From Chloroflexia bacterium (GTDB lineage Bacteria; Chloroflexota; Chloroflexia; Thermobaculales; Thermobaculaceae), in the NCBI GenBank assembly GCA_030446765.1, contig JAUJMR010000001.1, positions 923,706 through 960,338 on the forward strand: a stretch of 36,633 nucleotides of DNA. Reading direction: 5' to 3'. Below the pieces are notes generated by a model. That model did not search any database and was not told the DNA's origin. It was given only the letters and a program-made list of their open reading frames with translations. The position numbers and the translations under genes were made by a program. Below are positions 9,397 through 31,109 of the stretch, piece after piece (position 1 is the stretch's first letter; each line of letters starts with the position of its first letter).

Positions 9397-10114
9397 CTAT
9401 GGACGCATGAAAGACAAGGTAAGCAGCAGGACAAGAAACGATATACCGTTCAGCGCGTACACCAGCCCAATGGGGAACGCGCCGATCAGCACGCCCGCGA
9501 TGGCCGGCCCACCGATCGTTCCGAACTGGCGCATCAACTGACTGAGGCTAACGGCGTTCGTGAAGTGCTCCCGCGGCACGAGCTGCGGCAGAAGCGCCTG
9601 CTGCGCCGGCGTCTCGAACGCGCTCACCCCGGAGATCACCGCGGTTAACGCGTACAGCGCGGCGAGGCTGACGTTCCCCGAGAAGGTGATCGCCGCGAGC
9701 GCGGCGGTGAACAGGCAAGCGGCTGACTGCGACCAGATGATAAGCCTGCGCCGATCGTGGATGTCAGCGACCACACCGCCGACCAGCCCGAACAGCATCA
9801 CCGGCAGGATGCGGACTAGCCCGACCACCCCAAGCCCAAGCGCTTGGCCCTGCAGCGCGAACTGGAGTCCGAGCAGCGAGATCGCATACTCGGTGCCTTC
9901 GAGCAGCGCGTAATACGCAATTCGGTTGAATGATTACGCATGTCATCCCGAACGCAGTGAGGGATCCGTACTCCCTGCCACGGATTCCTCGCAGGCTCGG
10001 AATGACAGATACCCTACCGTTCAGCCGGAGTTCGTATAAACATGCCAGTTCGAGCCGGAAATCGCTATATCGGAGCGCGGCGAAACGGGGTATTCGCGGT
10101 TGATCCATTGCCAA
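9397..10114 (-). pseudogene. N-terminal part of a major facilitator transporter, interrupted by a miniature repeat
   Basis: The minus strand begins with MAMDQPRIPRFAALRYSDFRL, a typical start for EntS-like MFS permeases, at 10114. It is then cut by the 125-bp repeat (copy B) and resumes as EGTEYAISLLGLQFALQG, followed by transmembrane helices and the signature loop GLVGGVVADIHDRRRLIIW, ending at a stop right after LLTLSFMRP (9397). The repeat is 125 bp (not a multiple of 3), so it breaks the frame. The C-terminal part of the family is missing here; 61 codons of it lie at 7548-7730. Confidence 0.8.
9913..10037 (-). mobile_element. 125-bp miniature repeat, copy B, inserted in the MFS gene
   Basis: Same element as 8331-8455 in the opposite orientation. 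The first 100 bases match copy A exactly; the last 25 differ at several positions, and its ends match each other slightly better (about 14 of 18). It sits after codon 25 of the MFS gene and disrupts it. Confidence 0.8.
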
Positions 10115-24193: not shown

Positions 24194-26983
24194 CTATCCC
24201 GTGTTCTGCAGGCCGGCGGCGATGCCGTTTATCGACAGGAACACGGTGTGCAGCAGCGCTTGCCGCTCCGCATCGTGCCCGTCGCCGGCGGGCATCTCGC
24301 GCAGCCGTCGGAGCAATGCGACCTGAATATAGCTCAGCGGATCGACGTATGGGTTGCGCAGGCGGATGGACCGCTGCAATACCGGCGTGTTATCCAGTAG
24401 CTGATCCAGACCGGTCACCCGGACAACCCATTCGCACGTGCGCTCATACTCCTCACGCAGACGTGGCCAGATCGCCTCCGTGACTGCCGGATCGGTAACG
24501 AGACCCGCGTAGATCCCCGCGACGTGGATATCCGCCTTTGAGAGGATCATCTGTGCGTTGTCGAGCGTGCTGCGGAAAAACGGCCACTGCTCGTACATTT
24601 GACGCAGCCGGGCGAGCTTGTCCGTGTCGCCCTCGGCGTATGTCTCCAGCGCGCTCCCTAATCCGTACCACCCCGGCAGTGTGTGCCTGCTCTGCATCCA
24701 TGAAAATACCCACGGGATAGCGCGCAAGGTCTCGATCTCCAGCCCGGCTTGACGCGACGCGGGCCGCGACGCGATGGGCAACTCGCGAATCTCCGAGACG
24801 GGCGTCGCCTCCCTGAAGTAGCGCGAGAACTCCAGTGTCTCGTACACCAGGCTCCGGTACGTGCGCAGCGCGGTCTCGCTGAGATCGTGCGCGGCTTGCT
24901 CCCACTCTGCCTCGACATGCCCGCGGTCCGCAAGCTCGGTGGGGTTCAGCGTCGCCCGCAGCAGGGCGTTCGACACCTGATCCAGATAGCGTTGCGCGAC
25001 GGCCGGGTTGCCATAGCGCGTGAAGATCACCTCCCCCTGCTCCGTCAGCTTCATGCCGCCGTGCACGGTCCCGCGCGGCTGACCGAGGATAGCCTGGTTT
25101 GTCGGACCGCCGCCCCTGCCGATCGCGCCACCCCGCCCGTGAAAAAGCCGCAGGGTCACCCCTCGGGTCTGACAGGCGCGGGCAAGGTCGCGCTGTGCCT
25201 GGTAGAGCTCCCAGTTGCTCGTAAAGAAGCCGCCATCCTTGTTCGAGTCTGAGTACCCGATCATGACTTCCTGGTGCTCGTCGTGCGCGCGCACATTTGG
25301 CCTGTACACGGGATCGTCGAGCAGCTCGCCGACGATCGCACCAGACGCCCGCAGGTCGTCGATGCTCTCGAAAAGCGGCGTCACCTGCAGGCGGCTCCAG
25401 CCGTCGCGGGGTGAGAGCAGGCCCGCCTCCTTGGCCAGGAACAGCACCTCCAGCACGTCGGCGGCGGAGCGGGTAAAGCTGATCAGGTAGGTGTCCAGCG
25501 CCTCCACGCCGATCTCCGCGTGCACGGTGCGAATAGCGTCGAACACGGCAAGCGTTTCCGCCGTCTCCGGGGAGTAGGCGTGCACGGTGCTGATCACCGG
25601 CCTCGGGTTGCTGATCTCGCGCCGCAGCAGCGCAAGCCGCTCCGTCTCCGAGAGCTTGGCATACGCCGGACACACCCCGGCTGTGGCGAAGACCTCCGCC
25701 ACGGCCGCCCGATGCCGGTCGCTGTGCTGCCGCACGTCTATCTTCGCGAGGTGGAAGCCGAAGACGGTGATACTGCGCTGGAGATCCGCGATGCTTCCCC
25801 CCGCCAACCTGCCGCCCTTGTGGCTCCGGAGACTTTCGGCGACGATCTCTACGTCTTCCTGCAGCTCGTGGACACCGACATAGGCGACGCCCGGCTGTGG
25901 TGGCTGCATGCGCTCCATCGCGGCGAGGCTGTTTCGGAGCTTCTGAATCATCAGCCCAACCTTACGCCGGTACGGCTCATTGCGATTACGACTGAGCAAC
26001 GAGGCCGCGGCATCCGGCAGCGCCCGCTCGTCCGCGCGAAGCGACTCCCAGAACTCCTCGCTCATCCCCACCAGCCGCTCGCTCATCGAGAGTGTGCGCC
26101 GAACCGTGTCGAGCTGGGCGATGTAGTGCCGGAGTGCCACGCCCTTCTGCAGCCGCGCCGTGCGGACGGTGATCTCCGGCGTCACATTCGGATTGCCATC
26201 CCGGTCACCGCCCATCCAGGTCCCGAAACGCAGAAAGCTGGGCACCTGCCACTCGTGCTCCGGGTACGCGGCACGGAGCGCCGTACTCATCTCCCGGTAC
26301 ACGCGCGGTACGGTCTCGAAGAGGCTCTGCTGGAAGAAGTACAGATTGTTGTACACCTCGTCGAGCGGTGTGGGGCGTGTCAGCCGCACGTCGTCGCTCT
26401 GCCACAGGGCAGTCGCGACCTCGCGGAGCCGTTCCGCGACCTCCGCGCGTCCGGCAGCGGTCATGAACGCATCGTCGAGCAAGGCGACGAGTCGAGATAT
26501 CCGGGCCAGGTGCATCAAGGTGGTGCGCCGCCGGGACTCCGTCGGATGGGCCGTGAAGACGAACTCGACCGAGATGCCCGCCAGCAAGTCGCGCACCTGC
26601 TCGGCGGAGACGCCCTCCCGCGCGAGCCCTATCACCGCCTCGTGTGCAGAGCCCGGGCGGACAGAACCGTCCTCCAGATCCCGCTGCCGAACGACACGCA
26701 GGCGGTGGTTCTCCTCGGCGATGTTGACCACCTGGAAGAACAGGTTAAACGCGCGGATCACGGAGAAAGCGGTCGCAGGCGGGAGGGATGAGGTGCGCTC
26801 CATCAACTCGCGATACGCCTCATCCGACCAGTTGTTACGCAAGGCAATGCAGCGCGTGCGCAGGTCCTCGACCGTCTGGAAAAGATCGTCGCCCGCCTGC
26901 TCTCGCAGGACGTCGCCGACGACGTTGCCCAGGAGCCGCACATCCTCGCTCAGCCGGTCTCGGGTGCTCTCTCTCACGCTCAT
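24194..26983 (-). CDS. ppc: Phosphoenolpyruvate carboxylase
   Basis: About 929 residues, full length and intact. Carboxylates PEP with bicarbonate to oxaloacetate, refilling the TCA cycle. Seen: catalytic His in SVEFVFTAHPTESRRRT, LRFGTWMGGDRDGNPNVTP, HSDRHRAAVAEV, VMIGYSDSNKDGGF, the glycine loop LFHGRGGAIGRGGGPTNQAI, and the C-terminal SINGIAAGLQNTG that closes the active site. ATG 26983 is preferred over the in-frame ATG 27001: an extended -10-like TGCTAGACT ends only 8 bases upstream, and there is no Shine-Dalgarno, which suggests a short-leader or leaderless mRNA. Confidence 0.97.
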   Translation of the reverse strand: MSVRESTRDRLSEDVRLLGNVVGDVLREQAGDDLFQTVEDLRTRCIALRNNWSDEAYRELMERTSSLPPATAFSVIRAFNLFFQVVNIAEENHRLRVVRQRDLEDGSVRPGSAHEAVIGLAREGVSAEQVRDLLAGISVEFVFTAHPTESRRRTTLMHLARISRLVALLDDAFMTAAGRAEVAERLREVATALWQSDDVRLTRPTPLDEVYNNLYFFQQSLFETVPRVYREMSTALRAAYPEHEWQVPSFLRFGTWMGGDRDGNPNVTPEITVRTARLQKGVALRHYIAQLDTVRRTLSMSERLVGMSEEFWESLRADERALPDAAASLLSRNRNEPYRRKVGLMIQKLRNSLAAMERMQPPQPGVAYVGVHELQEDVEIVAESLRSHKGGRLAGGSIADLQRSITVFGFHLAKIDVRQHSDRHRAAVAEVFATAGVCPAYAKLSETERLALLRREISNPRPVISTVHAYSPETAETLAVFDAIRTVHAEIGVEALDTYLISFTRSAADVLEVLFLAKEAGLLSPRDGWSRLQVTPLFESIDDLRASGAIVGELLDDPVYRPNVRAHDEHQEVMIGYSDSNKDGGFFTSNWELYQAQRDLARACQTRGVTLRLFHGRGGAIGRGGGPTNQAILGQPRGTVHGGMKLTEQGEVIFTRYGNPAVAQRYLDQVSNALLRATLNPTELADRGHVEAEWEQAAHDLSETALRTYRSLVYETLEFSRYFREATPVSEIRELPIASRPASRQAGLEIETLRAIPWVFSWMQSRHTLPGWYGLGSALETYAEGDTDKLARLRQMYEQWPFFRSTLDNAQMILSKADIHVAGIYAGLVTDPAVTEAIWPRLREEYERTCEWVVRVTGLDQLLDNTPVLQRSIRLRNPYVDPLSYIQVALLRRLREMPAGDGHDAERQALLHTVFLSINGIAAGLQNTG

Positions 26984-26991
26984 CAAGCGCC

Positions 26992-27000
26992 AGTCTAGCA
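26992..27000 (-). promoter_or_regulatory. Probable ppc promoter, extended -10
   Basis: TGC TAGACT on the minus strand, ending 8 bases before the ppc ATG. No good -35 is seen, which extended -10 promoters tolerate. The composite transposon target site begins about 30 bases further upstream, so this core is undisturbed. Confidence 0.45.
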
Positions 27001-27029
27001 CACGGGAGCAGGGGGAACGGGCGCGGAAT

Positions 27030-27038
27030 ACAAGGCAG
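27030..27038. repeat. Left 9-bp target-site duplication of the composite transposon
   Basis: ACAAGGCAG directly outside the left end CAGGGTCATG. The identical 9 bases lie outside the far right end at 29905-29913. Confidence 0.85.
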
Positions 27039-28245
27039 CAGGGTCATGTCAAAGTCGTAGTCCATCGCGTATCCTCCGTCTAAGAACCACCAAAGAGGAG
27101 GATTCGCGAGAGACGGGAGCCATTATACGACGCTGATGGCAGCGCTGGCGGACGTGCCCGACCAGAGGGCAAGGCGGGGCGTGAGGCACTCGCGGTGGTT
27201 GCTATTGGTGCTTGTAGTCGCGGCTGTGCTAAGCGGCAACAAGCACGGGAGGGCGATAGCACAATGGGTCAGGGAGCACACCGCAACGTTGGTGGAACTG
27301 CTGGAGCCGGGGGTGGGAAGCTATCGAGTGAGTCAACTCGTAAGCGAGCAATAGCGCTGGTGGATGTGTCCGAGTTGGAGGGGCGGCTGATAGGGTTGTC
27401 GGCTGGGGCGCGGCAGGCTGGAGGGTTGCGCGGTCAGGCTATGGATGGCAAGCAGGTACGTGGGTGTGGGACGCACGGGAGGCTGATGCACTTACTGAGT
27501 GTAGCCAGACACGGGGACGGTGCAGTGCTGGCGCAGGTGGAGGTGGCTACCAAGGAGAACGAGATAGTGGCCGCACCCAAGCTCTTGAAGGGACTGGAGC
27601 TTAGGAGTACAGTCACAACTATGGACGCGATGCTGACGCAACGCAAGCTAGCTGGGCAGATACTGGGGCAGGGTGGGCATTATTTGATGGTGGTCAAGGA
27701 CAACCAGGCGAGTATGCGCGAGTCCATAGCAGAGCTGTTCGAGGTGGGAAGCTGGATGTTTAGTCAGATAGGCACAAGGTACTGGAAGGGTGAGAGCCGG
27801 GGCAAGGGACACGGCAGGATAGAGAAGCGTACCCTGGAGAGTTCTACTGTGCTCCCGGGCTGGCTGCGGTGGCCAGGAGAAGCGCAGGTGCTGAGGCGCA
27901 CCTGCGAGAGGGAGATCATTGCTACCGGGAAGCTACAGCGTGAGGTGAGCTACGGGGTGACTGGCCTTCTGCCTGCTCAGGTGGGACCAAAGGAACTGGA
28001 AGGTTACTGGAGGGATCACTGGACTATAGAGAACCGGCTACACCACGTGCGAGATGTGACGGTGGGCAAGCGTATACGGGGAGCACGCCTCACGCACTCG
28101 CAGCGCTCAGAAACTGCCTCATCAGCTTGCTGCGACGTAGGGGCTGGACAAGTATTGCCGACGCCCTTGTGCACTACGCAGCTCATCCAGCCAAAGCCCT
28201 GTCCTTCATCGGCGCTATCCCTACCTCCAATTTGACATGACCCTG
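27039..28245 (+). mobile_element. ISAs1-family insertion sequence, about 1.2 kb
   Basis: Ends CAGGGTCATGTCAAA and its inverted copy ending at 28245, 16 of 18 terminal bases matching, normal size for ISAs1. It carries one DDE transposase gene. It forms the left arm of the composite transposon. Confidence 0.85.
27136..28240 (+). pseudogene. ISAs1-type DDE transposase, frameshifted
   Basis: Frame 1 from ATG 27136: MAALADVPDQRARRGVRHSR and the hydrophobic LLVLVVAAVLSGNKHGRAIA. It shifts near 27315 to KLSSESTRKRAIALVDVSEL. Catalytic region: AMDGKQVRGC (first Asp), VTTMDAMLTQRKLAGQILGQ (second Asp), GGHYLMVVKDNQ, YWRDHWTIENRLHHVRDVTV (Glu). It shifts again near 28100 to LRNCLISLLRRRGWTSIADA, AKALSFIGAIPTS and a stop at 28238-28240 inside the right inverted repeat. 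At least two frameshifts, so no active enzyme as read; mobility would need a partner copy elsewhere. Confidence 0.85.
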
Positions 28246-28487
28246 CATCTGGCGCCTAGATGACGAAGCGACCCAACACTAATCTGAGCACCGTGCGGTC
28301 ACCACTGCACAGATAGGGGAGAAAATCGGGAAACAAGGGATCTGGGTGAAGCATCCGGGACGAAGGGCCCCTTGGTGTGGACCGCTGGGATCTAACAGTG
28401 ACCATGTGGTGCCCGCAGGCTTGATGGATTGCGCACGGCACGTAGGGATTCTATATGCAGCACACTGCCCGCCATGCCTGGTAGGGC
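28246..28487. other. Cargo spacer with no supported gene
   Basis: About 240 bases between the IS right end and the MarR terminator hairpin. Short open frames only; no recognisable motif. Confidence 0.4.
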
Positions 28488-28528
28488 CAATGCCCGGCAA
28501 CTCGCCTACTCGTCCTGAGCGGGCATTG
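28488..28528 (-). terminator. Hairpin at the end of the MarR gene
   Basis: 9-bp inverted repeat CAATGCCCG / CGGGCATTG around the MarR stop codon (28506-28508). Probable weak terminator for the minus-strand MarR gene; no T-run. Confidence 0.35.
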
Positions 28529-29000
28529 TGTACAGGTGTGCTTGAATTCTGCCCAGGAGTCCGGTCAATGTTTCCTGCTCGTCAGCAGTAAGGCAACCCA
28601 ACCACTGCATCTCGGCCCGCAGTATCTCGGGGAGCAGCTCGCGGTGCAGTATACGTCCCTCATCTGTGATCTCAATGAGGAGCTTCCGCCGGTCGGTAGG
28701 ATGCGCCCGTGCGCCAGATCAAGCCACGTTTCTCAAGGAATCAAGCAGCCCTGTGACGGTAGCTGGATGAGTGAACAGCGCGCGCTGGCTAATGACGCGA
28801 GGCGAGCGCCTCCCCGCGCCCTCGAGAATCCCTAGCACGTTGGAGGCAGGGGCAGAGATGCCATACTTGCGGGCGAGCGGTATGACCCGCTCCATCAGCA
28901 GATCGCTGGTGCGTACTAGATTCACAAGCGCCTCTGTCGCTGACTTCTGCGCCAGGGTACTGGCTCTGAAAAGACTCACCAAATCGGATAGGCGCTTCAA
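28506..29000 (-). pseudogene. MarR family regulator, frameshifted in the winged helix
   Basis: TTG 29000 begins KRLSDLVSLFRASTLAQKSA, LVNLVRTSDLLMERVIPLAR, KYGISAPASNVLGILEGAG, VISQRALFTHPATVTGLLDS (recognition helix). The wing is scrambled: EKRGLI in a second frame, then RRAHPTDRRKLLIEITDEGR (typical wing DRR and TDEG) and a dimerisation helix to the stop at 28506. At least one indel at 28725-28740. An ATG at 29031 in another frame (MTRRIDDAVALE) may be the original start, which would add one more shift. Divergent from the cupin gene, over a palindromic operator. Confidence 0.75.
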
Positions 29001-29056
29001 GGGCTACTGCGTCGTCAATACGTCGCGTCATTTTCACCTCCGGTCTATTCTGCCTA

Positions 29057-29098
29057 TTGACTTATACTCCCTATCAGTATAATATGAAACCATATTAT
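29057..29098. promoter_or_regulatory. MarR-cupin divergent promoter and palindromic operator
   Basis: TTGACT at 29057-29062 and TATAAT at 29078-29083 face the cupin gene (spacer 15 bp, short). A perfect palindrome ATAATATG-AAAC-CATATTAT (29079-29098) overlaps the -10, and ATACT/AGTAT arms lie beside it. This AT-rich patch stands out in the GC-rich window and fits a MarR-type operator controlling both genes. Confidence 0.6.
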
Positions 29099-29178
29099 TT
29101 GGCAGTGTGTGACTTTGTTGTCGGGCTGGGTGGTACGGTGAGTAGCACAAGGAGAGGCAAGAGGATGAAACAGCCACG

Positions 29179-29694
29179 GTGCAGGAGAGCGCCAGCAACG
29201 AGCAGGAAGGGAAGATACCGGCATCGGAGATCCTCCACCTACCGAATGGCGGGGGCGCGCTACAAGTGCTTAGCCAGCGAATCACCTTCAAGAGAAGTGC
29301 CGAGAATAGTCCATATGCCCTCCTTGAGAGCCTAGATGCACCACAGAGCGGGCCGCCTCCACACATACATCACACGCAGGACGAGGCGTTCTATATCCTT
29401 GAAGGGCAGTACGAGTTCTATTGTGGTGACCAGATCATCATGGCTGGGCCGGGTTCTTTTGTCCACATCCCTAAGGGCACCGTCCATACCCTGCGAAACG
29501 TTGGACAGGTGCCTGCGCGCGCCATGGTGATCCTCACGCCACCAGGACCGTTGGAGCGGTTCTTCGAGGAGGTAGGCGACGTAGTCACAGACGAGGACTC
29601 CCGGCCATCCCCCGCTGGACCGCCTGACATTGACAAGTTGATGGCCAGCGCTCGACGCAACGAAATGGAAATAATACTCCCAGACGGAGCATAG
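29179..29694 (+). CDS. Cupin-domain protein (quercetinase-like)
   Basis: 171 residues by GTG start. Single cupin barrel: PPPHIHHTQDEAFYILEGQY (motif 1 with metal His and Glu), PGSFVHIPKGTVHTLRNVG (motif 2, metal His). Similar small cupins bind Fe/Mn/Ni and include dioxygenases and sugar isomerases; the function here is unknown. The strong AAGGAG at 29149-29154 is placed for an ATG at 29165, which is in a different frame (MKQPR), so the original start may be there with a one-base indel a few codons in. It is the only intact-looking gene in the composite transposon and probably under MarR control. Confidence 0.75.
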   Translation: MQESASNEQEGKIPASEILHLPNGGGALQVLSQRITFKRSAENSPYALLESLDAPQSGPPPHIHHTQDEAFYILEGQYEFYCGDQIIMAGPGSFVHIPKGTVHTLRNVGQVPARAMVILTPPGPLERFFEEVGDVVTDEDSRPSPAGPPDIDKLMASARRNEMEIILPDGA

Positions 29695-29749
29695 AGTAAA
29701 CTGGCAGTGATCCCGGAAGTCCTATCCTGAAGACAAGCAGGGCGCGTTC

Positions 29750-29904
29750 CAGGGCGAGGTCAAAGTCCGTGTTAGCGGGAGGCGTACGCTGTAGAGACTA
29801 CGTCTCTACGCCCGCACATGGGCCTCTCTTGATGTCAATGCCGGTCGGTAACGCACCTGAAGGCAGACCGAGGTTGGCTCTAAGCCGACTTTGACATCAC
29901 CCTG
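29750..29904 (+). mobile_element. 155-bp non-autonomous ISAs1-like mini-element
   Basis: Its own inverted ends, CAGGGCGAGGTCAAAGTC (29750) and CAGGGTGATGTCAAAGTC (complement from 29904), match at 16 of 18. They closely match the ends of the ISAs1 element 1.5 kb upstream. No coding sequence. Inside is a perfect stem GTAGAGAC / GTCTCTAC (29791-29809), a motif common in dispersed bacterial repeats. It has no target duplication of its own and forms the right arm of the composite transposon. Confidence 0.8.
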
Positions 29905-29913
29905 ACAAGGCAG
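29905..29913. repeat. Right 9-bp target-site duplication of the composite transposon
   Basis: ACAAGGCAG directly after the outer right end; identical to 27030-27038. Confidence 0.85.
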
Positions 29914-30079
29914 TTGCCGTGACATTGGACACCGCACGCCCGGCACAGGCGGAGGTAAGCGCCCGCACTGCCCGGACCTGTTAGAATACGCTCGGTCGAG
30001 GGACGAACCGGCACGGCACACGATCGGATCCGGATCGGAGAGACATGCGGTTCGCCACCCGCCCGGTACAGGAGCAGGT

Positions 30080-31109
30080 ATGAGCTCGTTGCTGGAACAG
30101 GAGATTCACGAGCAGCCCCAGGTCGTCGCGCGGCTGCTGGAGCGGGAAGCGGAGCGCGCGAGGCGGATCGTTGCGGACCTCCCTGCCTTCACGCACGTCC
30201 TCATCGCCGCACGCGGCACCTCGGATTACGCGGCGACGTACGCGAAGTACGCGTGGGCTGCGCTCGCGAGGTATCCGGTGGCGCTGGCAACTCCTTCGCT
30301 GCACACCCTCTACGAAACGCCCCCGAGACTCGACGGCGCGCTTGTGGTTGGGATCTCCCAATCGGGGCAGTCGCCGGATATCGTCGCCGTGCTCGCGGAT
30401 GGCAAGCAGCGAATCGCCCGACGCTCGCCATAACGAACGACGGCGCATCCCCCTTGCGCAGATGGCCGACCACGTCATCGAGCTGCATGCGGGGCCGGAG
30501 CGCAGCGTGGCGGCCACGAAGACGTACACCGCCCAACTCACGGTGATGGCGCTGCTCGCGGCCACATGGAACGGCGAGGCGGATCACCTCGCGGAGCTGC
30601 AGACCATACCGGACGCTCTGGCGCGGACCCTCGCCGGCGTGCCCGACCGCCACGTCAGGCGGAGCGCTACCGCTACATGGAGCAGTGCGTCGTGATTGGT
30701 CGCGGTTACAACTACGCGACCGCCTTCGAGCTCGCGCTCAAGCTCAAGGAGCTGACCTACGTGGGTGTCGGCCGTACTCCTCGGCGGACTTCCGGCATGG
30801 ACCGATCGCGACGATCGAGCCAGGGCTGCCCGTCGTGCTTATCATGCCAAGGGGACGGTCTTTCGACGATATGCTCGCGCTCGCGCATGAGGTGGATGCG
30901 CTCGGCGCGAGCTGCTCGTCGTCTCCGATTTGAAGGAGGCTGGTTCGCTAGCGCGAACGAGCCTGCCGATCGCGGCGAGTGTGCCGGAATGGTTAAACCC
31001 CATCACCGCGATCGTGCCCGGTCAGATCCTCGCACTGCACCTCGCACTCGCTCGCGACTACGACCCCGACACCCCACGCGGCCTCAACAAGGTTACGCGG
31101 ACGACGTAG
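30080..31109 (+). pseudogene. SIS-domain sugar isomerase (GlmS C-terminal/AgaS-like), many frameshifts
   Basis: Double sugar-isomerase domain of about 340 residues that acts on hexosamine phosphates. ATG 30080: IHEQPQVVARLLEREAERAR, VLIAARGTSDYAATYAKYAW, VVGISQSGQSPDIVAVL (phosphosugar loop). Later blocks are in changing frames: [94 protein letters not shown], stop 31107-31109. At least five frame changes. It fits a GlcNAc/MurNAc salvage role with nagA and namZ 3-5 kb away, now lost from this copy. Confidence 0.88.

Follow-up and report, generated by a model that had tools for sequence, protein, structure and literature searches.

The window, meaning the whole 36,633-nucleotide stretch of DNA that was analysed, carries in the ppc/SIS intergenic region a unit of 2,866 bp (2.87 kb, positions 27039-29904). 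It consists of a full IS, a segment holding divergent marR and cupin genes, and a 155-bp MITE, and is bordered on both sides by the same nine bases (Table 1). The palindrome between the two cargo genes is a likely operator. A class-wide search with the cupin returned a single close relative, in genome G003 (67%), and a scan of the genome contigs with this protein gave no confirmed relatives.

Table 1. Features of the unit and its borders (window coordinates)
Feature	Position	Strand	Evidence and remarks
Left 9-bp target duplication ACAAGGCAG	27030..27038		Sequence; single copy at the G001 empty site
ISAs1-family IS, 1,207 bp	27039..28245	+	Left end CAGGGTCATGTCAAAGTC, right end CAATTTGACATGACCCTG (16/18); NF033564, PF01609
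Transposase ORF, 346 aa open	27195..28235	+	Covers profile positions 42-288 of 314
Cargo segment	28246..29749		G+C 57% vs 64-66% in flanks
MarR-type regulator gene	28531..29031	-	Frame broken in assembly; 74% nucleotide match to a G003 MarR gene that is intact (178 aa)
8-bp palindrome ATAATATG-N4-CATATTAT	29079..29098		Divergent marR/cupin promoter region; read from sequence
Cupin-domain protein, 171 aa	29179..29694	+	PF07883, E 1.4e-16; 67% amino acid match in G003
Type II MITE, 155 bp	29750..29904		Ends CAGGGCGAGGTCAAAGTC (inner) and CAGGGTGATGTCAAAGTC (outer, reverse strand)
Right 9-bp target duplication ACAAGGCAG	29905..29913		Sequence

Judged by its sequence, the left component is an IS of the ISAs1 family. 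Its transposase matches the NF033564 model with an E-value of 4e-40 (137.8 bits, cut-off 70) and also PF01609, and it is the sole ISAs1 transposase above the model cut-off in the home genome; a scan of the genome contigs with it gave no confirmed relatives. Besides the transposase, the element has short inverted ends, and its 9-bp target duplication (9-10 bp in its relatives) lies within the range of about 8-10 bp expected for the family. Apparent one-base frame breaks occur in the transposase near positions 27315 and 28085, possibly as assembly errors, and the missing ends of the profile sit in the neighbouring frames (both placed by eye). The right end of the IS departs from the form common in the bacterial family: other IS right ends read CGACTTTGACA, as does the outer end of the MITE, and the motif GACTTTGACA found in these right ends is kept by the MITE outer end, while CAATTTGACATGACCCTG deviates from it.

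The quality of the home assembly bears on how broken frames are read. The SIS-domain gene to the right of the insertion (30080-31000) shows several one-base gaps against its counterpart in G001, which is open over 383 codons, and these gaps suggest indel errors in the home assembly. Because this gene is intact in G001, no decay is claimed for the transposase or for marR, whose frame likewise has a one-base break. Their treatment as true pseudogenes was set aside, since the assembly itself carries one-base indels.

The right component is non-coding and resembles the IS only at its ends, its interior being unrelated, and it therefore belongs to the type II MITEs as PMC10969869 uses this category. 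It folds better than 200 of 200 shuffled sequences (z -3.5). Furthermore, a solo relative with 70% identity (L004) was found in G006, which belongs to another genus of the same family, flanked by its own 9-bp repeat, ATCCTGGGC. Short length, lack of coding capacity, IS-like ends and solo copies with their own duplications together indicate a genuine type II MITE. Of the two kinds of copies that had been suggested for a search, the 155-bp element alone is represented by the G006 relative, the class-wide search with it returning nothing else, and the searches did not recover the whole unit a second time. In G003, a 130-bp ISAs1 left end (L014, C239:55313-55442) gives way to unrelated sequence with a GTAGAGACGTTGC palindrome resembling that of the window MITE.

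The borders of the unit are defined to the base. The two copies of ACAAGGCAG abut the outer ends CAGGGTCATGTCAAAGTC (from 27039) and GACTTTGACATCACCCTG (to 29904) exactly; CAGGGTCATGTCAAAGTCG begins directly 3' of the left copy, and CGACTTTGACATCACCCTG terminates at 29904, where the right copy begins. These are the only two occurrences of ACAAGGCAG on the plus strand of the window, and identity at nine of nine bases at a fixed position has a chance probability of 3.8e-6. The inner flanks (CATCTGGCG... and ...GGCGCGTTC) show no mutual match. When 18 bases are compared, the outer ends have 17 in common, against 16 for the two ends of the IS and 16 for those of the mini-element. Both the restriction of the exact repeat to the outer junctions and the better pairing of the outer ends than of the IS ends had been put forward in the sequence-only reading, and both stand. 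An independent repeat finder paired 27039-27057 with 29886-29904 (95%), the ends of the IS with each other (27038-27053 with 28231-28246) and likewise those of the mini-element (29750-29767 with 29887-29904). In addition, a scan of the 36.6-kb window with the consensus end, allowing up to three mismatches, gave four sites against 0.69 expected, namely both IS ends and both mini-element ends only.

A relative of the same genus, G001, preserves the empty site. Its PEP carboxylase is 98% identical, window positions 26003-27038 align to L022:3307-4342 of this genome, and the sequence from 29905 onwards aligns from L022:4334 onwards. The two alignments overlap by nine bases (L022:4334-4342), which are the one copy of ACAAGGCAG present there, so that position 27029, ACAAGGCAG and position 29914 are contiguous in G001 with correct spacing and at base resolution. 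The empty site that had been predicted, with the ppc-side and SIS-side flanks joined across one ACAAGGCAG, is hence found. A second relative from this genus, G002 (91%), also lacks the unit, with a diverged intergenic sequence. Because the G001 flanks meet at a single ACAAGGCAG, the 2,866-bp unit came in as one insertion with a 9-bp duplication; on the simplest reading, this was a single event in the lineage of the home genome. The mark of a composite transposon, a duplication outside the outer ends that is single at the empty site, is present here, and no solo element occupies the ACAAGGCAG site in the relatives examined.

Elements with such ends are common in the bacterial family. A search for ends in seven genomes, after which end pairs were read, revealed a clan of ISAs1-ended MITEs of 152-174 bp with many members, most of them bordered by exact 9-bp duplications. 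One member of 164 bp occurs in three copies in the home genome (98-99% identity); for two of the three, G001 retains the empty site, where the aligned flanks overlap by 9 bp, and over 18 bases the left ends of two are identical to the IS left end and that of the third differs by one base. These copies, their empty sites and their matching left ends indicate that machinery cutting such ends was active in the lineage. In G003, the homologues of marR and of the cupin gene lie on separate contigs, each about 2 kb or less from a clan MITE flanked by a target duplication. This arrangement shows a route by which such genes can come to adjoin a spare end, and the proximity may also be due to chance.

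Several other observations were made on these elements. In G006, an inverted pair of 164-bp MITEs (L075 and L076; C77:7635-7798 and 9920-10083) has flanking duplications that are swapped and reverse-complemented (GGTACCGAC and CCGTCCGGAA), a signature of recombination inverting the intervening ~2.1 kb. Next to one MITE lies a dispersed repeat of another kind, about 125 bp long (L060:431-554), with about 40 hits each in G001 and G002. Two genomes assigned to different genera (L006 in G001:C121 and L013 in G006:C106) have the same sequence flanking an ISAs1-type end at the edge of a contig, which suggests either cross-contamination of assemblies or recent transfer.

Altogether, the 27039-29904 unit is very probably a composite transposon in which a full ISAs1-family IS, the marR/cupin cargo and the 155-bp MITE were moved as one by the IS left end and the MITE outer end, through an ISAs1-type transposase. 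Joint mobilisation of the cargo by the IS and the MITE had been proposed from the first inspection, and it gains support from the G001 empty site, the ISAs1 model match and the duplication-flanked relative of the MITE. The IS left end would be bound by an ISAs1-type transposase, in the simplest case that encoded by the IS itself and possibly one acting in trans. The outward-facing MITE end would be taken as a substitute right end, bypassing the slightly degenerate right end of the IS, and all DNA between the two outer ends would be inserted into the ppc/SIS region with duplication of the 9-bp target. The departure of CAATTTGACATGACCCTG from the family form, which the MITE has kept, may have led to use of the farther end. 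Such surrogate-end transposition is the likely mechanism and the most economical account. The composite is known from one instance: neither a second copy of the unit nor a donor locus was found by plasmid search and other sequence searches, and inspection of outer duplications around the remaining ISAs1-type ends of the retrieved loci gave no second composite.

How the cargo came to lie between the IS and the MITE cannot be proved from the inner junctions, and use is proven for the outer ends only. A simple element of the mobile insertion cassette or transporter IS type, carrying cargo between these outer ends, would give the same target duplication, its inner IS and MITE ends being later additions or chance matches. 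This explanation is unlikely, however, as both ends and a recognisable transposase make the left part a complete IS, and the right part, with two ends of its own, is matched by a solo relative from a different genus, so that the IS and the MITE exist as independent elements. Stepwise build-up has a precedent in the MITESen1 composites, which were proposed to arise when a circular molecule recombines with a MITE already in place (PMC13367494). Applied here, a single element would have produced the ACAAGGCAG duplication, and the rest would have been acquired through homologous recombination or gene conversion between related ends. The left and right components differ, however, and have only ~18 bp of end in common, which is too short for ordinary homologous recombination, and none of the relatives examined has a solo element at the site; this scenario is therefore highly improbable. 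The many one-base indels in the window's assembly might raise the question of an assembly artefact or a coincidental repeat, but this is hardly credible given a contig of 984 kb, an exact duplication and joined flanks that equal the G001 sequence at base resolution. The composite transposon mobilised by one IS end and one MITE end is thus the preferred reading.

Tn5 is an example of the classical IS composite transposon. Another is the ISApl1-mcr-1 transposon (PMC5821093). The unit shares with these systems the use of the outer ends of two flanking elements, a cargo between them and a duplication outside only. Whereas classical composites have two copies of the same IS, the right flank here is a MITE that has only its ends in common with the IS and an unrelated interior, and the unit is therefore a variant rather than a classical IS-IS composite. 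One-sided mobilisation of the ISEcp1 type depends on a single IS, its far end and a substitute end downstream. Transposable modules of the IS1380 family similarly comprise a single IS that moves neighbouring DNA by its far end and a downstream substitute end (PMC3281130). In both, the substitute is a weakly similar genomic sequence, whereas here it is a true MITE end with a near-perfect match.

Mobilisation of enclosed DNA by MITE ends is known from MITE-MITE composites, termed TIME-COMP (PMC4133298, PMC13367494), and from MITE-flanked integrons (PMC10969869, PMC3934969), TIMEs being Tn3-derived (PMC4133298, PMC13367494, PMC3934969). These rely on two MITEs and a transposase supplied in trans, whereas the present unit has a full IS on one side and belongs to the ISAs1 family. 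Mobile insertion cassettes (MIC/MICE) also hold cargo between IS-type ends but lack a transposase gene (PMC5444012), which the unit carries. Among the open-licence papers searched, no IS-plus-MITE composite of ISAs1 type was found, in keeping with the initial remark that such composites are rarely described for this family.

MITEs are usually deemed passive, yet here one gave the end that mobilised chromosomal genes, and searches for mobile cargo restricted to paired identical ISs would overlook such units. It is conceivable, though rather doubtful, that the family's abundant ISAs1-ended MITEs serve as spare right ends with which a lone IS copy can capture adjacent genes, as a general route favoured by degenerate IS right ends. 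The unit varies a theme that is already known, and, together with its empty site, it is a clean natural record of joint action by a MITE and a full IS as one transposon.
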